Assembly (NCBI GenBank): GCA_024642705.1
Contig: JAHEAQ010000001.1
Coordinates: 176,225-240,224 of the forward strand
DNA: 64,000 bases
Source of the DNA: Bacteroidota bacterium
Lineage (GTDB): Bacteria; Bacteroidota; Bacteroidia; Chitinophagales; Saprospiraceae
Direction: 5' to 3'
The notes under the pieces were generated by a model that was given only the letters and a program-made list of their open reading frames with translations, ran no database searches and was not told the DNA's origin. The stretch's first letter is position 1; each line of letters begins with the position of its first letter. Below, piece by piece: positions 10,660 to 56,892 of the stretch. Both the position numbers and the translations under genes were made by a program.

Positions 10660-10692
10660 AAGAAAAAGTGGTAGCCCATAGGCCACCACTTA
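10660..10692 (-). terminator. Terminator of the RNase P RNA gene
   Basis: On the minus strand AAGTGGTGGCC and GGCTACCACTT form an 11-base stem (one G-T wobble) around a short loop, followed by TTTTTC. It follows directly after the conserved 3' end of rnpB. Confidence 0.8.
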
Positions 10693-11063
10693 TCATAATT
10701 GTAAGCCGGATTCTGTTCACATTTCTGTGTTCTATCATTTATCTTGTCTTCAACATCGTTGAAGATCTTAGCTGCCTACCCCTTCTAGTATCTTTCGAAG
10801 TAAAACGAGAAATCTTACTGGCTAAGCCAACTAGAATGTACATGACATTTCAACCTGCGAGGTTTATCTACATTTTTCATTACTGAAAAAGTTGTGCGCT
10901 CTTACCGCACATTTTCACCCTTATCCCACCAAAAGTGAGACGGTATATTTTCTGTGACACTTTCTGTATATCTTTTCAAAGATACCCCATTAATTAGATG
11001 GCGCAGTACTCTACGTTGTCCGGACTTTCCTCCCCATATTACTATGCAGCGATAGAAAATTAT
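10693..11063 (-). ncRNA. rnpB: RNase P RNA, bacterial class A
   Basis: The catalytic RNA that matures tRNA 5' ends. Read on the minus strand it holds the two near-invariant segments: GAGGAAAGTCCGGAC near the 5' end (about 11018-11032) and ACAGAATCCGGCTTAC at the 3' end (about 10701-10716), which together form the P4 core. The CTATCGCTGCATAG hairpin right at the 5' side fits helix P3. The length of about 370 nt is normal for class A. The 5' end is inferred from the -7 box at 11071-11078; the 3' end from the terminator just beyond. Exact ends may be off by several bases. Confidence 0.92.
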
Positions 11064-11070
11064 GACGATA

Positions 11071-48120: not shown

Positions 48121-48160
48121 AAAGACTTTTCGATATTGTCAAATACCAAAAAGTCTTCAT
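48121..48160 (+). terminator. Terminator after the zinc-finger gene
   Basis: AAGACTTTT (48122-48130) pairs with AAAAGTCTT (48149-48157) around an 18-base partly structured loop, one base past the stop codon. The T-run after it is poor, so termination may be bidirectional or weak. Confidence 0.5.
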
Positions 48161-48330
48161 CCCGTTCTCATTATTTCTTAAAATAAATATTTTATAAAAG
48201 TACTACTTACTTAAACTCTAATAACTATAAATAAGACAATTATATATAACCAAAAATAAATATAATAAATTAATTTAATATGTTATAGCATATTTTTTAC
48301 TTTTTTTTCTTCATAATTTGAAAAACCATA

Positions 48331-48338
48331 TATATTTG
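48331..48338 (+). promoter_or_regulatory. -7 box of the trp operon promoter
   Basis: TATATTTG fits TAnnTTTG exactly and is followed by CAACATA. The leader peptide ATG at 48346 begins only 7 bases after the box, so transcription would start at or just before that codon. The best TTTG upstream (48317-48320) is too near; a proper -33 element is not clear. Confidence 0.55.
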
Positions 48339-48345
48339 CAACATA

Positions 48346-48411
48346 ATGAAGAGAAATAATTTAAATAACACAAATTGGTGGTGGCATTTTAAGGAATTTA
48401 GAATGTGCTGA
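48346..48411 (+). CDS. trpL: trp operon leader peptide with three tandem Trp codons
   Basis: A 21-codon reading frame, ATG 48346-48348 to TGA 48409-48411, encoding MKRNNLNNTNWWWHFKEFRM then Cys. Three consecutive Trp codons (48376-48384) are followed by His and Phe. It sits between the -7 box and a strong terminator upstream of trpE, the position of a classical attenuation leader. Ribosome stalling at the Trp codons under tryptophan shortage would free the downstream strand (48402-48415) to act as antiterminator. There is almost no room for a 5' leader before the ATG, so translation initiation may be leaderless or nearly so. Confidence 0.85.
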   Translation: MKRNNLNNTNWWWHFKEFRMC

Positions 48412-48456
48412 GACTAATTTATTATTTATAAAAATATTAAAGTGACTTGCCACATT
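48402..48456 (+). promoter_or_regulatory. Antiterminator of the trp attenuator (strand pairing 2:3)
   Basis: AATGTG (48402-48407) can pair with CACATT (48451-48456), GAG (48410-48412) with CTT (48446-48448), and ACT (48413-48415) with AGT (48441-48443). This uses up the left arm of the terminator. The 5' strand overlaps the leader stop codon, so a ribosome finishing the leader covers it and lets the terminator form. Confidence 0.6.
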
Positions 48457-48480
48457 AGACGGCAAGTCACTTTTTTTTTA
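48440..48480 (+). terminator. Attenuator terminator of the trp operon
   Basis: A perfect 12-base stem AAGTGACTTGCC (48440-48451) / GGCAAGTCACTT (48461-48472) with a 9-base loop and a following run of T to 48479. It lies 12 bases before trpE, so transcription stops before the structural genes unless the antiterminator forms. Confidence 0.92.
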
Positions 48481-48491
48481 ACCAAAAATTA

Positions 48492-49892
48492 ATGGAAAAA
48501 ATCAAGATAAAAGCTATCACGAAGACAATTTTTGCAGATTTAACAACTCCAGTTCAAGTTTTCATGAACTTAAGAAATAAATATGCAAAAGTTTTTCTTC
48601 TCGAAAGTTCAGAATATAATAAAAAGGAGAACAGTAGGTCATTTATCTGTTTCGAAAGCTTGCTTTCATTTTCAGCTGAAGGGTCAACCGTCAAACTAAA
48701 AGATTACAAAGGCAATACAAAACGGGAACAACTATCCAATGATAAAGTCCTCAAAGAATTAAAGACATGCTTTAATTTAATAGATTTTGAAGGTGACGAG
48801 GCATCAAGCCAGTATAATGGATTTTTTGGTTATTCAAGTTTTGATGCAGTGCAATATTTTGAGCAAATTGAATTCGATTCAACAAAAGATGAAAATTTAA
48901 TTCCTGCATTAGCTTATGAATATTTCAGATTTATTATAGTCATTAATCATTTCAGCGATAAAATGACATTAATTGAAAATGTGCCCGATGGGGAGAAATC
49001 AAAAATGGATGCCATCCAATCCCTTATAATGAATAGGCAAGCGGGGCTTGGCAAATTCAGAGCAGTAGGAAATGAATATTGCCCCATTGCACCTGAAGAA
49101 TTTAAAAAGATGGTTGCTACAGGTAAAAATCATTGTCAGAGAGGGGATGTCTTCCAAGTTGTGTTTTCAAGAAGGTATTATCAAAAATTTACTGGTGATG
49201 AATTAAATGTATATCGGGCACTAAGAACTATTAATCCATCCCCATATTTATTCTTTTTCGATTTTGGAAACTATAGAATATTTGGCTCTTCGCCAGAAAC
49301 CCATATAACTATAAATAAAGGAATTGCAGAAATCCATCCTATTGCGGGAACATTTAGAAGAACAGGCGATGATGCAAAAGATGCGCTGCTTGCAGAAAAA
49401 TTATTAAAAGATGAAAAAGAAAATGCAGAGCATGTTATGCTAGTAGATCTTGCCAGAAATGATTTGAATAGAAAAGCCTTAGATGTTAAAGTAGAAAGTT
49501 ATAAAATGGCTCAATTTTTCAGCCACGTTATCCATCTTACATCTATTGTAAAAGGGAAAGTACCTCCGAATTCAGATGCTTTAAATATTTATGCCGATAG
49601 TTTTCCTGCAGGAACTCTCAGCGGAGCTCCAAAATTTAGAGCAATGCAATTGATCAATGAAAATGAGCCACATTCAAGAAGTTTTTATGGAGGAGCGATA
49701 GGGTTTTTAGGTTTAAATGGTGATATAAATACTGCAATTATGATTAGAACCTTTCTTAGTAAAAATAATGAATTAATTTTTCAAGCTGGTTGCGGAATAG
49801 TTATTGATTCAAATGAAGAAAGCGAGCTTCAAGAAGTAGAAAACAAATTAGCAGCATTAAAAAGAGCACTTGTAATTGCCGAAAATATATAG
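48492..49892 (+). CDS. trpE: Anthranilate synthase component I
   Basis: Chorismate-utilising subunit, 466 residues, first committed step of tryptophan synthesis. The N-terminal feedback site shows 'KVFLLESSEYNKKENSRSFI' with the LLES motif that binds tryptophan; the catalytic domain shows 'GDVFQVVFSRRYYQKFTGDE', 'NPSPYLFFFDFG', 'GSSPETHITI', 'HPIAGTFRRTGDD', 'EKENAEHVMLVDLARNDLNR' and 'PAGTLSGAPKFRAMQLI'. The gene follows the attenuator by 12 bases. Confidence 0.97.
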   Translation: MEKIKIKAITKTIFADLTTPVQVFMNLRNKYAKVFLLESSEYNKKENSRSFICFESLLSFSAEGSTVKLKDYKGNTKREQLSNDKVLKELKTCFNLIDFEGDEASSQYNGFFGYSSFDAVQYFEQIEFDSTKDENLIPALAYEYFRFIIVINHFSDKMTLIENVPDGEKSKMDAIQSLIMNRQAGLGKFRAVGNEYCPIAPEEFKKMVATGKNHCQRGDVFQVVFSRRYYQKFTGDELNVYRALRTINPSPYLFFFDFGNYRIFGSSPETHITINKGIAEIHPIAGTFRRTGDDAKDALLAEKLLKDEKENAEHVMLVDLARNDLNRKALDVKVESYKMAQFFSHVIHLTSIVKGKVPPNSDALNIYADSFPAGTLSGAPKFRAMQLINENEPHSRSFYGGAIGFLGLNGDINTAIMIRTFLSKNNELIFQAGCGIVIDSNEESELQEVENKLAALKRALVIAENI

Positions 49893-49895
49893 CAA

Positions 49896-50468
49896 ATGGG
49901 AAAAATTTTAATTTTAGATAATTATGATTCTTTCACTTATAATCTTTATCAATTAGTAAAAATGGTATCAAATGATGAAGTCGAAGTGCATAGAAATGAC
50001 AAAATAAGTGTTGAAGATTGCGATAGATTTGACAAAATCATTCTATCGCCCGGACCAGGACTTCCTGAAGAGGCTGGTAATTTGAAAGAAATCATCAGAA
50101 CTTACAGTGGTAAAAAACCAATATTTGGTGTTTGCTTAGGGCAGCAGGCAATTGGAGAAGTTTTTGGTGCAAGCTTAAAAAATCTTTCGAGAGTATACCA
50201 CGGAATACGAACAGAATTCCATACTGTAGAACCTAAAGATGAAATTTTCAATCAAATTCCTGAAAGATTTTTTGCCGGTCGCTATCATTCTTGGGTAATA
50301 GATCGCGAGACATTACCTAGTTGTCTCAATGTCACATGCACAGATGAACATGGAGAAATTATGGCCATTGCACACAAGGAACATAAAACTCGAGCTGTAC
50401 AGTTTCATCCAGAATCAGTAATGACTGATTTTGGAAAAGAAATGATGACTAATTTTTTAGCTTTATAA
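49896..50468 (+). CDS. trpG: Anthranilate synthase component II, glutamine amidotransferase
   Basis: 190 residues of the class I amidotransferase fold that feeds ammonia to TrpE. 'ILILDNYDSFTYNLYQLV', 'ILSPGPGLPEEAGNL', nucleophile Cys in 'IFGVCLGQQAIGE', 'YHGIRTEFH' and the His/Glu of 'RAVQFHPESVMT' are complete. It begins 3 bases after trpE and may be coupled. Confidence 0.97.
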   Translation: MGKILILDNYDSFTYNLYQLVKMVSNDEVEVHRNDKISVEDCDRFDKIILSPGPGLPEEAGNLKEIIRTYSGKKPIFGVCLGQQAIGEVFGASLKNLSRVYHGIRTEFHTVEPKDEIFNQIPERFFAGRYHSWVIDRETLPSCLNVTCTDEHGEIMAIAHKEHKTRAVQFHPESVMTDFGKEMMTNFLAL

Positions 50469-50478
50469 GTAAGATCAA

Positions 50479-51477
50479 ATGAAATATACATTAGAAAAAT
50501 TATATACTCACGAAGAATTAACGCGTAAAGAAGCCTATAATCTGATGATTGAAATTGCAGCTGAAAAATTCAATGAAGTGCAATTGGCTTCGCTCCTCAC
50601 AGTATTTCGAATGAGGCCGATAAGCATGGAAGAATTTGCGGGTTTTAGATCAGCTTTGTTGTTTTTGATGATACAAATTGAATATGATAGAAATGAGATT
50701 ATTGATATGTGTGGTACAGGAGGAGATGGGAAAAATACATTTAACATTTCGACTTTGGCCTCAATTATTGTTGCTGGAGCAGGATACAAAGTAGCGAAAC
50801 ACGGAAATGCAGCTATTTCTTCGGTTTGTGGCTCTTCAAATGTAATTGAAAGCTTGGGGTACAAATTCACTAATAATCCAGGAATCATTCAAAGTCAATT
50901 GGATAATTATAATTTAACATTCATGCATGCCCCGATGTTTCATTCTGCTTTAAAGCCATTGGGACCAGTAAGAAGAGGTCTTGGCGTTAAAACGTTTTTC
51001 AATATGATGGGCCCTTTGGTCAATCCAGCAAGGCCAAAAAACCAAATTGCAGGTGTCTATTCATTAGAACTCATGCCATTTTACAAGTTTATTATGGAAG
51101 AGGAAGAAATGAATTTCGGAATTATTCATGCCTTGGATGGTTATGATGAAATTTCACTTACAGGCACTACTAAAATGGTTACTGAAAATGGTGAGCAGAT
51201 GCTTGATCCTGAAGATTTGGGGCAAAAAAGATTAGATGCTTCTGAAATTATTGGAGCAGATAATATAAAAGATTCGTCAGCCACTTTCTTAAAGATTCTT
51301 TCAGGTGATGGAACGGATGCTCAGAATAGTGTAGTCTTAATTAATGCAGCCATTGGGATTCAATGTTTTGATAGAAAAAAATCAATTTCTGATTGTTATG
51401 CAGAAGCTGAAGAATCCTTAAAAAGTAAAAAAGCAAAGCAAAATTTAGATAAATTATTGACATCAATTAATTATTGA
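50479..51477 (+). CDS. trpD: Anthranilate phosphoribosyltransferase
   Basis: 332 residues, second step of the pathway. The PRPP-binding loop 'MCGTGGDGKNTFNIST', the 'KHGNAAISSVCGSSNVIESL' substrate region and 'FMHAPMFHSALKPLGPVRRG' with 'FFNMMGPLVNPARP' are as expected. Eleven bases downstream of trpG. Confidence 0.97.
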   Translation: MKYTLEKLYTHEELTRKEAYNLMIEIAAEKFNEVQLASLLTVFRMRPISMEEFAGFRSALLFLMIQIEYDRNEIIDMCGTGGDGKNTFNISTLASIIVAGAGYKVAKHGNAAISSVCGSSNVIESLGYKFTNNPGIIQSQLDNYNLTFMHAPMFHSALKPLGPVRRGLGVKTFFNMMGPLVNPARPKNQIAGVYSLELMPFYKFIMEEEEMNFGIIHALDGYDEISLTGTTKMVTENGEQMLDPEDLGQKRLDASEIIGADNIKDSSATFLKILSGDGTDAQNSVVLINAAIGIQCFDRKKSISDCYAEAEESLKSKKAKQNLDKLLTSINY

Positions 51478-51480
51478 AAA

Positions 51481-52275
51481 ATGAATATACTAGACGAAAT
51501 AGTAGCTCAAAAGAAGCAAGAGGTCCAACTAGACAAATCATTATATCCAATAAAATTATTGGAACAAAGTATTCATTTTTCAGCACCTTGCCTTTCCTTA
51601 AAAGATTACATTAAACGAAAAGACAAGTCAGGAATTATTGCTGAATTCAAAAGAAAGTCTCCTTCCAAAGGGGCAATAAATTTATATGCATCTCCTGAGC
51701 AAGTAAGTATTGGGTATATGCAAGCTGGAGCTTCGGCAATCTCAGTATTGACTGATTCTAAATTTTTTGGCGGCTCTAAAGAGGATTTAAAGATTGTACG
51801 AAAATACAATTATTGCCCGATACTTAGGAAAGAATTTATTGTTGATGAATACCAGATAATTGAAGCAAAATCTATTGGAGCAGATGCCATTCTCTTAATT
51901 GCAAGCATATTAAATGATGAAGAAATAAAAAGTTTTTCGACCCTTGCAAAATCATTAGGAATGCAGATTCTATTTGAAGTGCATGATAAAGAAGAACTTG
52001 AAAAATATATACCTGAGATGGATTTGATCGGAGTTAACAATAGAAATTTAAAAACTTTCAAAACTGATTATCGATATTCTTTAGATTTGTTGCCTTATTT
52101 ACCAAAGGATTCAATTAAAATAAGTGAAAGTGGCATTAATGACCCACTTATTGTGAATGAATTGATTGATGCCGGATATGACGGATTCCTAATAGGTGAA
52201 TATTTTATGGCGCATGGAAATCCAGGAGAAAACATTTTAAAATTTATCAAAAAAATTAATGAGATACGATCCTAA
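51481..52275 (+). CDS. trpC: Indole-3-glycerol phosphate synthase
   Basis: 264-residue TIM barrel that closes the indole ring. Catalytic motifs 'IIAEFKRKSPSKGAIN', 'AISVLTDSKFFGGSKEDL', 'ILRKEFIVDEYQIIEAKSIG', 'GVNNRNLKTFKTD' and 'ISESGI' are present. The start lies 3 bases after the trpD stop. Confidence 0.97.
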   Translation: MNILDEIVAQKKQEVQLDKSLYPIKLLEQSIHFSAPCLSLKDYIKRKDKSGIIAEFKRKSPSKGAINLYASPEQVSIGYMQAGASAISVLTDSKFFGGSKEDLKIVRKYNYCPILRKEFIVDEYQIIEAKSIGADAILLIASILNDEEIKSFSTLAKSLGMQILFEVHDKEELEKYIPEMDLIGVNNRNLKTFKTDYRYSLDLLPYLPKDSIKISESGINDPLIVNELIDAGYDGFLIGEYFMAHGNPGENILKFIKKINEIRS

Positions 52276-52276
52276 A

Positions 52277-52891
52277 ATGATTTTAAAAGTTTGTGGAATG
52301 CGCGATATGGACAATATTTCACATTTAAGTGGTATTGGCGTTCGAATGATGGGTTTTATCTTTTATGATAAGTCAAAGCGTTTTATTGGTTTAGAAAATC
52401 GAAATGCGCTTTTTAATAATGTACCAAAAAATGTTAAAAAAGTTGGTGTTTTTGTAAACGAACCAATAGAGGCTCTGATCGAAAATGCTTCTCATTACCA
52501 TCTCGATTACGTGCAATTACATGGAAACGAAAGTCCAGATTATTGTAAAGAAGTTCAAACCAAAATCAAAGTAATTAAAGCATTTAGAATAGATGAAAAT
52601 TTTGATTTTAATCTACTTGAAGAATTTCAAAATTGCGAATATTTGTTGTTCGACGCAAAGGGGAAAGAATACGGAGGAAATGGTATAAAATTCGATTGGA
52701 GTGTACTAGAAAAATATAAAATGGAAACACCATTTATATTAAGTGGTGGAATAAAGTTGGAAGATGCTGACGATATATTATCAATTCAACATCCAAAAAT
52801 GGCTGGAATAGATATAAATAGTGGTTTCGAAATCGAGCCAGGGCTTAAAAATATTGAAAAGATTAAATCATTTATAAGTTTATTAAGATGA
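52277..52891 (+). CDS. trpF: Phosphoribosylanthranilate isomerase
   Basis: A 204-residue TIM-barrel enzyme between TrpD and TrpC steps. '[14 protein letters not shown]' holds the catalytic Cys, 'VGVFVNE', '[13 protein letters not shown]' and '[18 protein letters not shown]' (catalytic Asp) follow. Two starts are possible: an ATG at 52259 inside trpC, adding MRYDPK, and the ATG at 52277 right after the trpC stop. The second is preferred because the family starts at MxxKxCG. Confidence 0.95.
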
Positions 52892-54072
52892 GTTACGCAG
52901 TAGATGAAAAAGGATTTTATGGCGAATTCGGAGGAGCATTCATACCTGAAATGCTTTATCCCAATGTCGAAGAATTAAGAACAAAATATCTGGAGATTTC
53001 TTCACAACCAGAATTCATAAAAGAGTTTAACGATCTTTTAAGGTATTACGTAGGTCGTCCGACACCTTTGTATTTTGCAAAAAATCTTTCGTTAAAATAT
53101 AACACCAAAATTTATTTGAAAAGAGAAGATCTGAATCATACTGGTGCTCATAAAGTTAACAATACAATTGGTCAAATTCTTCTTGCTGAGAGAATGGGCA
53201 AGAAAAGAATTATAGCCGAAACAGGAGCTGGACAACATGGGGTTGCAACTGCAACGGTTTGTGCTTTAAAGGGATTGCAATGCATTGTTTATATGGGTGA
53301 AGTAGATATTGCTAGACAAGCTCCCAATGTAGCAAGGATGAAGATGCTCGGTGCAGAAGTAAGGCCTGCAAAAAGTGGCAGCAAAACATTGAAAGATGCG
53401 ACAAATGAAGCAATCAGAGATTGGATTGGCAATCCCGAGGATACATTTTATATTATCGGTTCAGTAGTTGGACCACATCCCTACCCAGATATGGTTGCTA
53501 GATTTCAATCAGTTATTTCAGAAGAAATCAAAAAACAACTCCAAGATCAAATTGGTAGAGAATACCCAGAATATTTGTTAGCCTGCGTGGGCGGAGGCTC
53601 TAATGCTGCAGGCACTTTCTATCATTATTTAGATGATTTGAGGGTGCAATTGTTCATGGCAGAAGCTGCAGGTCATGGAGTCGATACGGACAAATCAGCA
53701 GCGACAAGTATATTAGGCACTTCAGGCATTATTCATGGAAGTAGAACTTTATTAATGCAAACTGAAGATGGTCAAATTATTGAGCCCCATTCTATTTCTG
53801 CAGGTTTAGATTATCCTGGAATAGGGCCTTTGCACGCCCATTTATTAAAAATGGGAAGAGCAAAATCATTTCCTATTACAGATAAGGAAGCTGTAGATGC
53901 TTCTTTTATGTTATCAAGAATCGAAGGCATTATTCCAGCTTTGGAATCCGCACATGCACTTTCTATTTTAGAAAAATACACTTTTTCAAAAGACGAAGTG
54001 GTTGTTATTAATCTATCGGGCAGAGGAGATAAAGACCTGGATACTTACATGCAATATTTAGATAAATATTAA
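52888..54072 (+). CDS. trpB: Tryptophan synthase beta chain
   Basis: PLP enzyme of 394 residues that joins indole and serine. The PLP lysine lies in '[20 protein letters not shown]', the phosphate cup in '[18 protein letters not shown]', and the indole-site Glu in '[20 protein letters not shown]'. The ATG overlaps the trpF stop by 4 bases (ATGA), so they are translationally coupled. Confidence 0.98.
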
Positions 54073-54080
54073 TATAAAAA

Positions 54081-54860
54081 ATGGAATTAAAATCAGAAAA
54101 ATTCGAAAATATTTTCAGTGGCAAGAATCATTTATTGAGCATCTATATAACAGCTGGTTACCCAAAGTTAAATGATACTGTACCTACTTTAATTGCTTTG
54201 GAAAAATGTGGAATTGATTTTGTTGAAATAGGAATGCCTTATTCAGACCCTATGGCGGATGGAACAACCATACAGCAAAGCAGCGAAAAGGCAATTAAAA
54301 ATGGAATGACTTTGAAAATTTTGTTTGCTCAGTTAACTGAAGCAAGAAAGCATGTTTCGATACCATTTGTATATATGGGATATCTGAATCAACTTATGCA
54401 ATTTGGTCTCGAAAAATTCTGCATTGAATGTAATAAAGCAGAAATTGATGCCTTGATTATCCCAGATTTACCAATGGATGTGTATGAAAAAGAATATAAA
54501 GAACTATTTGATCGATATAAATTGGGTTTGAGTTTCCTAATAAGTCCTCAAAGTGGCGAAAAAAGAATAAAGCAGGCTGACAGGCTAAGTTTTCCATTTA
54601 TTTACCAAGTTTCAAGCAATAGTATAACTGGTGCTAAATCTGAAATTAAAGATTCTCAAAAAGATTATTTCAAAAGAATTGATAAAATGAACTTAGACAA
54701 GCCAAAAATGATTGGTTTCGGAATATCTAATCGTGAAACTTACAATCAAGCAATTGAAAGAGCACAAGGAGCTATTATTGGGAGTGCATTTATCAAAGCA
54801 GTTACTGAACCTGGAATATTGGAAGAAAACATTGAGCGTTTTGTTAAAACCATAAGATAA
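54081..54860 (+). CDS. trpA: Tryptophan synthase alpha chain
   Basis: 259 residues; cleaves indole-glycerol phosphate and channels indole to TrpB. Catalytic Glu in 'FVEIGMPYSDPMADGTTIQQ' and Asp in 'EIDALIIPDLPMD' are clear, plus 'GFGISNRETYNQA'. Its stop codon overlaps the aroF start (TAATG). Confidence 0.97.
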   Translation: MELKSEKFENIFSGKNHLLSIYITAGYPKLNDTVPTLIALEKCGIDFVEIGMPYSDPMADGTTIQQSSEKAIKNGMTLKILFAQLTEARKHVSIPFVYMGYLNQLMQFGLEKFCIECNKAEIDALIIPDLPMDVYEKEYKELFDRYKLGLSFLISPQSGEKRIKQADRLSFPFIYQVSSNSITGAKSEIKDSQKDYFKRIDKMNLDKPKMIGFGISNRETYNQAIERAQGAIIGSAFIKAVTEPGILEENIERFVKTIR

Positions 54861-55873
54861 TGATTATTCAAATAGATAAAAATTGCACTGTTAATCAATT
54901 GGTAGACATCAATGCTGCCCTTGAAAATATTGGCTTTAAAGGAACGAAAATTAATACTCAGTTTGGCCAATATATTATTGCGATTGGAAAGAGAGAATTT
55001 GACATAAGGAAAATTGGGCGAATGCAGGGCATCGTTGATATTCATCGAGTTTCTGACGATTTCAAATTGGTTTCTTCAAAATGGAAAGTTGGCAAGACCA
55101 AAATAAAAATAGGAACAGACAATTGGGTTGGTGATGGACATTTTCAAATTATGGCGGGACCTTGTTCTATTGAATCTGAAGCACAAATCGATTCCACAAT
55201 TGCACATTTATTAGCAAATAATGTGACTATTATGAGAGGCGGTGTTTACAAACCGAGAAGTTCACCTTATAGCTTTAGGGGACTTGGGCAAGAAGGGCTC
55301 AAAATATTTTATAAAAAATGCAAAGAACATAACATAAAAATAATTACTGAAGTCATGCAAGTTTCACAAATAGAACCCATGCATGATTATGTGGATATTT
55401 TTCAAGTAGGAGCAAGAAACTCTCAAAATTTCAATTTGCTTGATGAGTTAGGTAAAGTAGATAAACCCGTTTTATTAAAAAGAGGGATAAGCGGCACTAT
55501 TGAAGAATTATTACAAGCTGCAGAATATATTTTTTCAAATGGTAATGAAAAAATAATGCTTTGTGAAAGAGGGATAAGAACTTTTGAAGGCGCTTATAGA
55601 AACACTATGGATCTAAATGCAATTAGTATATTAAAAGAAAAAACACATTTGCCAGTAATTGCTGATCCCTCTCACGGTATTGGAATCAGAAGATTTGTTC
55701 CTCAAATTGCATTAGCTTCAATTTTGGCAGGTGCTGATGGGTTGATTGTTGAAGTTCATGAAAATCCAGAAAAAGCATTTTCAGATGGACAACAGACATT
55801 AAGCTATAAAGAAGCGGAAGCATTATATAAAAATATTAATGCAACTTTAGAATTAAGAAAAAATCTATTGTAG
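54860..55873 (+). CDS. aroF: 3-deoxy-7-phosphoheptulonate (DAHP) synthase
   Basis: 337 residues, first step of the shikimate pathway. The N-terminal 90 residues ('QLVDINAALENIGFKGTKIN', 'RMQGIVDIHRVSDDFKLVS') form the ferredoxin-like regulatory domain known from the Thermotoga-type enzyme; the barrel follows with 'MAGPCSIESEAQI', 'MRGGVYKPRSSPYSFRGLGQ', 'LCERGIRTFEGAYRNTMDLN' and 'IADPSHGIG'. No chorismate mutase domain is fused. Its presence in the trp operon puts the entry of aromatic synthesis under tryptophan attenuation. Confidence 0.93.
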   Translation: MIIQIDKNCTVNQLVDINAALENIGFKGTKINTQFGQYIIAIGKREFDIRKIGRMQGIVDIHRVSDDFKLVSSKWKVGKTKIKIGTDNWVGDGHFQIMAGPCSIESEAQIDSTIAHLLANNVTIMRGGVYKPRSSPYSFRGLGQEGLKIFYKKCKEHNIKIITEVMQVSQIEPMHDYVDIFQVGARNSQNFNLLDELGKVDKPVLLKRGISGTIEELLQAAEYIFSNGNEKIMLCERGIRTFEGAYRNTMDLNAISILKEKTHLPVIADPSHGIGIRRFVPQIALASILAGADGLIVEVHENPEKAFSDGQQTLSYKEAEALYKNINATLELRKNLL

Positions 55874-55908
55874 TAATATTGCATGGATCAATAAACAAAA
55901 AAAGAGAT

Positions 55909-56892
55909 ATGAATAGTTTTGGCAAAATATTTAGATTAGAAATTTTTGGAGAATCTCATGGAGATGGCTGTGGAGTTCTTTTGGATGGAGTCCCTCCAGG
56001 AATTCCTTTGGTTGAATCAGATTTTTTACCAGATTTGAAAAGAAGACAAGCGGGAGCTAAAGGAACTACACCAAGGGTTGAATCTGACCTCCCTTATCTT
56101 AAAAGTGGGGTATTCAATGGCTTCACAACAGGTGCACCATTGTTGATTTTCTTTGAGAACAACAATACCAAATCAAAGGATTATTCTAATCTTGTGAGAC
56201 AACCAAGGCCAGGACATTCAGATTTTGTTGCTTACAAAAAATACAAGGGTTACAATGACTATAGAGGTGGTGGTCATTTTTCAGGACGGTTAACATTAGC
56301 ATTGGTTGCTGCGGGAGTAATTGCTAAAAAAATTGCTTCTCCTATTTCTTTTTCTGCAGCGTTAATAGAAGCTGGAGGAAATTCTAATATTGAGGAAGCT
56401 ATAGATTGGGCTATTGAAAGTAAAAATTCAATTGGTGGAATAATTGAAAGTACAACAACAAATATTCCTATTGGATTGGGTGAACCATTTTTTGATTCTG
56501 TAGAATCTATTATTGCGCATTTGGTTTTTGCAATACCTGCAACCAAAGGAGTTGAATTTGGTTCTGGTTTTGCATCTGCAAAAATGACAGGTCTTGAACA
56601 TAATGACAATATCCTTGACTCATCAGGAAAAACAGAAACAAATCATGCTGCTGGGATTAATGGAGGCATAACCAATGGAAATGATTTTTATTTTAGAGTT
56701 GCAATAAAACCAACTTCTAGCATTCACCAAGTTCAAAATACCGTAAATTTAGAAACAGGCAAAGTTGAAGAATTAATGATTGTTGGAAGGCATGATGTCT
56801 GTATAGCATTGCGAGCGCCCGTTGTTGTCGAAGCAATTACTGCCATAGCATTTGCGGATCTTTTTTTACAAAGTGAATCTGTCAGCTCATAA
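55909..56892 (+). CDS. aroC: Chorismate synthase
   Basis: 327 residues from the ATG at 55909; makes chorismate, the substrate of TrpE. The reading frame is open ten codons further up, but the family starts 'MNSFGKIFRLEIFGESHGDG', so the inner ATG is chosen. Motifs 'RPGHSDFVAYKKYKGYNDYR', 'GGGHFSGRLTLALVAAGVIA' and 'VGRHDVCIALRAPVVVEAI' are present and bind FMN and substrate. It is the last gene of the operon; the end is convergent with the exosortase set, with no clear terminator. Confidence 0.96.
   Translation: MNSFGKIFRLEIFGESHGDGCGVLLDGVPPGIPLVESDFLPDLKRRQAGAKGTTPRVESDLPYLKSGVFNGFTTGAPLLIFFENNNTKSKDYSNLVRQPRPGHSDFVAYKKYKGYNDYRGGGHFSGRLTLALVAAGVIAKKIASPISFSAALIEAGGNSNIEEAIDWAIESKNSIGGIIESTTTNIPIGLGEPFFDSVESIIAHLVFAIPATKGVEFGSGFASAKMTGLEHNDNILDSSGKTETNHAAGINGGITNGNDFYFRVAIKPTSSIHQVQNTVNLETGKVEELMIVGRHDVCIALRAPVVVEAITAIAFADLFLQSESVSS

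Follow-up and report, generated by a model that had tools for sequence, protein, structure and literature searches.

The tryptophan operon of this Bacteroidota genome raises the question of whether its transcription is governed by translation of a short leader peptide and, if so, how ribosomes come to be loaded onto that leader. The locus lies in a window of 64,000 nucleotides, the whole stretch of DNA that was analysed, and all of its elements are on the plus strand. A candidate -7 promoter box of the TAnnTTTG type, TATATTTG (48331-48338), recognised by its sequence, its distance to the start codon and the published position of such boxes, is followed by an open reading frame of 21 codons, MKRNNLNNTNWWWHFKEFRMC (48346-48411, stop codon TGA at 48409-48411), which was defined from the sequence and by comparison with sister species. 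A sequence-only reading of this DNA had noted such a leader with three Trp codons in a row, and direct inspection bears this out: TGG occurs three times at 48376-48384, a putative stall site that is kept in relatives. Beyond an intrinsic terminator comes trpE, encoding anthranilate synthase component I (48492-49892; both Pfam domains are present and the NCBIfam trpE_most match is under its cut-off), and the order after the terminator is trpE-G-D-C-F-B-A plus a DAHP synthase gene. The genes downstream of trpE occupy 49896-55873, with starts at 49896 (trpG), 50479 (trpD), 51481 (trpC), 52259 (trpF), 52888 (trpB), 54081 (trpA) and 54860 (DAHP synthase); they were assigned with Pfam and NCBIfam, save trpF, for which the NCBIfam matches are under cut-off and Pfam alone gives the assignment. 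The next frame (55879-56892), whose motif suggests a putative chorismate synthase, may also belong to the operon. At the other end, a terminator-like hairpin is found on the minus strand at 48121-48158, directly after the preceding plus-strand frame, and if bidirectional it may insulate that gene from the trp leader. Elsewhere in the window, bacterial class A RNase P RNA is encoded on the minus strand at 10686-11068 (Rfam, 204.5 bits).

Comparison with other trpE loci shows that the leader is the rule rather than an accident of this genome. The sample drew 54 loci and 60 regions from relatives and added 80 named loci, 194 trpE upstream stretches in all, of which 192 were kept, L067 being too short and L184 identical to L078; it is a non-random sample, in that a trpE match at E<=1e-80 was found in 189 of 248 family genomes and mostly those nearest to the query were taken. 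A short ATG-started frame carrying a run of two or more Trp codons is found before trpE at 168 of the 192 Bacteroidota loci (168/191 on a strict count, since L020 and L082 are one stretch, both without a leader; three more pairs have one exact 60-mer in common, yet differ as loci), and at 138 the run is at least three codons long. The corresponding figures are 9/960 and 0/960 for shuffled sequences, and 2/192 and 0/192 for the reverse strand. The family is taken to be Saprospiraceae, as the records of that name L078 and L082 match the family genomes L184 and L020 in their upstream DNA. The run is present at 103 of 110 Saprospiraceae loci (at least three Trp codons in 83), at 3/3 other loci of the order (two with at least three) and at 62 of 79 named loci (53 with at least three); all three genus genomes searched retain WWW, so that homologous leaders do have the Trp codons that the earlier reading expected of them. 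Among the seven family misses, inspected by eye, two have a Trp run after TTG (L024, L162), one has spaced Trp codons (L187), L020 is ended by a contig edge and three are without any sign of a leader. Fourteen of the 17 named misses were followed further upstream: in seven no Trp-run leader was seen there, and in the other seven (L074, L075, L079, L084, L097, L110 and L120, several of them Bacteroidales and Bacteroides fragilis included) one stands 1.4-2.4 kb upstream of trpE, seemingly preceding trpB.

The leader also bears the marks of a coding sequence. Against the sister genome G002, codons 1-16 differ at four sites, all synonymous, whereas codons 17-21, which overlap segment 2 of the RNA, all change the amino acid. 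Spacing is confined as well: the last Trp is 7-10 codons from the stop in 133/168 leaders, the first Trp comes after 7-9 codons in 114 of the 134 leaders with one possible start, and segment 2 begins a median of 19 nt after the Trp run. A ribosome protects some 12-15 nt beyond its A site; with the spacing found, this footprint would put segment 1 under a ribosome halted at the Trp codons while segment 2 stays exposed.

Variants of the arrangement were encountered along the way. Two serial Trp-rich leader frames, each with a terminator-like hairpin, occur about 100-390 nt upstream of trpE in L059, L068, L070 and L092, and probably in L063, the first reading ...INTIWLPWWGLL... and the second ...WWW...; the hosts are two Draconibacterium metagenome-assembled genomes (MAGs), a Prolixibacteraceae MAG, Mariniphaga and a Bacteroidia MAG, and in L059 the second frame follows the first T-run directly, with no space for a promoter. 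Both leaders of such a pair would answer to the same signal. His-rich leader frames precede hisG at L245 and L246 in the window's own genome, which carries two hisG genes, and at L247 and L248 in sister species (His runs were listed for three of these four stretches and one more was spotted by eye), and in three of the four an exact -7 box stands 10-16 nt before the ATG. A crude filter found no convincing leader in the ilv and thr stretches of the genus.

The terminator lies at 48439-48479, where a stem of 13 bp (48439-48451 with 48461-48473) closes a 9-nt loop (48452-48460) and runs into nine T residues (48471-48479); its predicted energy is -19.7 kcal/mol, where shuffled sequences average -4.08 (z -8.0), and none of 200 shuffles equals it. 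The hairpin and T-run had been recognised from the letters alone, at coordinates right within a base or two, though with a stem of 12 bp. A hairpin scan with a loop limit of 8 missed it on the plus strand and listed the same hairpin on the minus strand. Among relatives, 10 of 11 stem pairs have changed on both sides (91 aligned sequences), and a strong terminator follows 154 of the 168 Trp leaders compared with 6/168 after shuffling (155 compared with 62 under a looser criterion). The 14 leaders lacking a strong terminator by the criterion used count against reading the element as an attenuator.

On the alternative pairings, the window and its relatives give different answers. The pairing originally drawn, 48402-48415 with 48441-48456, contains a core of six pairs, AATGTG of segment 2 (48402-48407, just 5' of the leader stop) with CACATT of segment 3 (48451-48456), while the outer part, from 48415 and 48441 inwards, is irregular and gives segment 2 only a weaker extension to 48415. 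The core takes up the loop and one base, the last, of the left terminator arm, and the earlier statement that this pairing removes the arm thus depends on the weaker outer pairs. Two sister species (L002, L003) have a core of 7 bp. A competing 1:2 hairpin, with segment 1 at its 5' side, is present in the window fold (48385-48392 with 48398-48405) and would act as a protector across 48385-48405. In the window sequence taken by itself, the antiterminator does no better than chance: the fold of 48385-48456 has a z of -0.63 and is equalled by 47/200 shuffles, 10/100 shuffles do as well or better in a duplex test, and the cross-locus rank of its segment 2 against foreign partners is 0.58. That it is short and no better than chance is a point against the attenuator reading.

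Across the relatives the picture is firmer. When the stretch around the stop codon, segment 2, was matched to its own terminator (left arm plus loop) and the duplex compared with shuffles, p<=0.05 was reached in 46/154 loci (7.7 expected), p<=0.2 in 97 and p<0.5 in 136, and the centre of the duplex falls 1 base past the first base of the stop codon (interquartile range -3 to +5; -7.5 to +14.5 in shuffles). Overlap of segment 2 with the leader stop, noted earlier for the window, is the rule across the loci examined and not peculiar to this one. Against whole left arms and loops from foreign loci the result is weak (rank <=0.05 in 15%, <0.5 in 67.5%, mean z -0.61), a weakness that may stem from the retention of similar letters in segments 2 and 3 at many loci. 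With the loop alone as partner, own pairings score above foreign ones in 81 distinct sequences (80 from the family, one from the order; 7.9 and 5.66, own above the foreign median in 72) and in 49 named loci (6.64 and 5.33; 35 above), with 0/2000 permutations reaching the observed mean in either set; this test was devised after the alignment had been seen, and the second set lies outside that alignment. The 1:2 pairing behaves likewise, at 5.41 and 4.69 (n=81; 52 above the median) and 5.35 and 4.53 in the second set (n=39; 25 above), again with 0/2000 permutations in both. Control segments give no such signal: upstream of the AUG there is no excess (the observed mean is equalled or exceeded in 1384 and 782 of 2000 permutations), and from stop +10 to +28 own pairings are if anything below foreign ones (1999 and 1995 of 2000). 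A clear example of covariation is L007, with segments TCATTCGG, CCGGGTGA and TCACTCGG. Loss of pairing in relatives, named beforehand as a sign against the model, was looked for and both the 1:2 and the 2:3 pairings were found to covary. An antiterminator predicted to exclude the terminator is supported by covariation across relatives.

Taken together, the element is very probably a ribosome-mediated transcription attenuator of the trp operon. Comparative sequence analysis supports the Trp run, the terminator, the covarying 1:2 and 2:3 pairs and the spacing, and with them the classical attenuation model first proposed for this DNA; from these we infer the response to tryptophan, the stalling and the start site. 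In the mechanism envisaged, translation would begin on an mRNA with only 2-3 nt predicted ahead of its AUG. An ample supply of charged tRNA-Trp would let the ribosome reach the leader stop and cover segment 2, so that the terminator forms and transcription stops before trpE. When tRNA-Trp is scarce, the ribosome would stall at WWW and cover segment 1, and the freed segment 2 could bind the terminator loop together with some of the left arm, allowing RNA polymerase to enter trpE. With the ribosome absent, 1:2 would pair and the terminator would form.

Other accounts of the same features have to be weighed. That the locus is a terminator beside a chance small frame, with translation playing no regulatory part, draws on the weakness of the window's own antiterminator and is very unlikely in the face of the Trp run, the coding constraint and the covariation among relatives. 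T-boxes, riboswitches and RNA-binding proteins such as TRAP control trp genes in other phyla, and one of them could in principle replace leader translation here. The chance of this seems next to nil: the sole Rfam match over cut-off in the window is RNase P, on which ground a T-box or riboswitch was rejected, and the highest bit score among the 19 sub-threshold matches belongs to a Trp peptide leader (two microRNA families having lower E-values). A different proposal would leave attenuation in place and add to it a function in trans for the terminated leader RNA, as a small RNA or small mRNA, for which the Sinorhizobium meliloti rnTrpL described in PMC7298713 offers a precedent. It would account for the conservation of the letters of the terminator, across classes, as well as of its shape, GGCTTG being found in 84/154 trp terminators compared with 19/1129 other terminator-like hairpins, a background that includes intragenic hairpins. 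The same conservation could also come from common descent and from segment 3 having to pair in two ways, and this additional role is considered quite unlikely.

A further alternative keeps the attenuator and differs only in where its RNA begins, and the evidence bearing on it concerns the promoter-to-AUG distance, which is the unusual and less expected point of this locus. The exact TAnnTTTG box ends 7 nt before the leader AUG in the window, and 6 and 7 nt before it in two sister species. In Flavobacterium psychrophilum this box is placed at -12 to -5 (PMC9723704), and for F. johnsoniae a box-to-start spacing of 4 or 5 nt is considered probable (PMC6847099); by these positions a gap of 4 corresponds to no 5' UTR at all and a gap of 7 to one of 2-3 nt, which predicts transcription from about 48343-48344. 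If transcription started further upstream instead, the same attenuator would have an ordinary leader 5' UTR. This is possible, if somewhat doubtful. Leaderless mRNAs are uncommon in Bacteroidota, at 5.5% in F. psychrophilum (PMC9723704), in B. thetaiotaomicron about 3.7% have a 5' UTR shorter than 10 nt, and in F. johnsoniae 87% have a leader over 10 nt (PMC6847099); moreover, no -33 TTTG was spotted at the usual spacing and the start sites are predictions. A sigma-70-like match at 48318-48347 might also be cited, but such matches are at chance level (4 sites compared with 3.6 expected in shuffles) and its start would fall inside the leader frame, so it was rejected as a promoter.

The distribution of gaps among relatives favours the near-leaderless start. 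After 34 leaders with several possible ATGs and two with too little upstream DNA had been set aside from the 168, 66 of the remaining 132 have an exact box within 45 nt. Gaps of 4-8 nt occur in 23 of these 66, exactly 4 nt being the commonest single value (11 leaders), and gaps of 0-3 nt are absent; the others lie mostly at 14-27 nt, with a few at 10-11 and 31-45, over a background of 0.08 per position. The 23 short-gap leaders are spread over eight genera within the family, a further family in the same order, and eight named loci (among them Flavobacterium, Tenacibaculum, Winogradskyella, Roseivirga, Mucilaginibacter and two Flavobacteriales MAGs). Ordinary frames have gaps of 4-8 nt in 3/319 (genus) and 0/520 (flanks) and of 14-30 nt in 20 and 15, though these controls, which take the first ATG as the start and include genes within operons, are biased against short gaps. 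The ratio of short to long gaps is 23:36 in leaders and 3:35 in ordinary frames (Fisher p 0.0008, uncorrected for kinship), and with one mismatch allowed the excess at 4-8 nt persists in less clean form (39/132 compared with 36/319 and 27/520). We give roughly even weight to the wider proposition that leaderless or near-leaderless mRNAs have on repeated occasions come to carry the Bacteroidota trp attenuator, the gap shrinking to, and never below, the distance at which the AUG is still transcribed, and that some genera have this layout where their relatives have an ordinary short 5' UTR, such that ribosome loading has been reset repeatedly. If true, the route of ribosome entry would have been changed time and again in a switch that needs quick loading. 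A literature search covering titles, the openings of abstracts and some passages found no description of leaderless trp leaders in Bacteroidota.

The switch itself is textbook; the contribution here lies in its scope and in a test case. Comparison, including covariation evidence for the antiterminator, supports a genuine Trp attenuator of a kind already known, and the element precedes most of the trpE genes examined in a family in which few genomes pass the cut-off of its Rfam model. Its two promoter layouts suit direct study of ribosome loading on a leader frame almost without a 5' UTR, where the ribosome must load in time for attenuation in a phylum not using Shine-Dalgarno sequences.

The known kind is Rfam RF01692 'Bacteroid-trp', published in 2010, of which the window holds a divergent copy; the element's existence in the phylum, which the earlier reading thought worth documenting, was already on record. 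The window scores 34.7 bits, below the gathering cut-off of 49, with model positions 1-131 aligned end to end at 48326-48451, upstream of trp genes. Six of 16 loci scanned pass the cut-off; in a faster search, whose stricter filters lose weak matches, 5/248 family genomes pass, 14 reach E<=0.001 and the window's own genome (G000) gives no match. In Weinberg et al. 2010 (PMC2864571) the family appears as one line of a table, and the words 'tryptophan' and 'attenuation' are absent from the main text. Like the window, RF01692 is a Trp peptide leader before trp genes in Bacteroidota, and its consensus ends with the same terminator start, AAGGCUUGUC; the model spans the 1:2 region, breaks off within the left arm of the terminator and leaves out the antiterminator.

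The E. coli trp attenuator (RF00513, Trp_leader) combines Trp codons with 1:2, 2:3 and 3:4 pairing, the logic also seen here. The sister locus L002 matches RF00513 at 29.2 bits (cut-off 41) and the window has no match to it up to E 10. Unlike in E. coli, segment 2 of the window starts before the leader stop and pairs mainly with the terminator loop, and Shine-Dalgarno use is not expected in Bacteroidota (PMC6847099). Within the same phylum, leader-peptide attenuation has been suggested before amino-acid biosynthesis operons of F. psychrophilum (PMC9723704), in a paper whose main text does not contain the word tryptophan, in contrast to the Trp leader described here. A parallel to the predicted near-leaderless start is the S. 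meliloti trpL (PMC7298713), a leaderless leader mRNA of a trp attenuator, which belongs to another phylum, encodes a peptide of 14 amino acids and has an experimentally mapped 5' end, whereas that of the window is predicted 2-3 nt upstream of the AUG.
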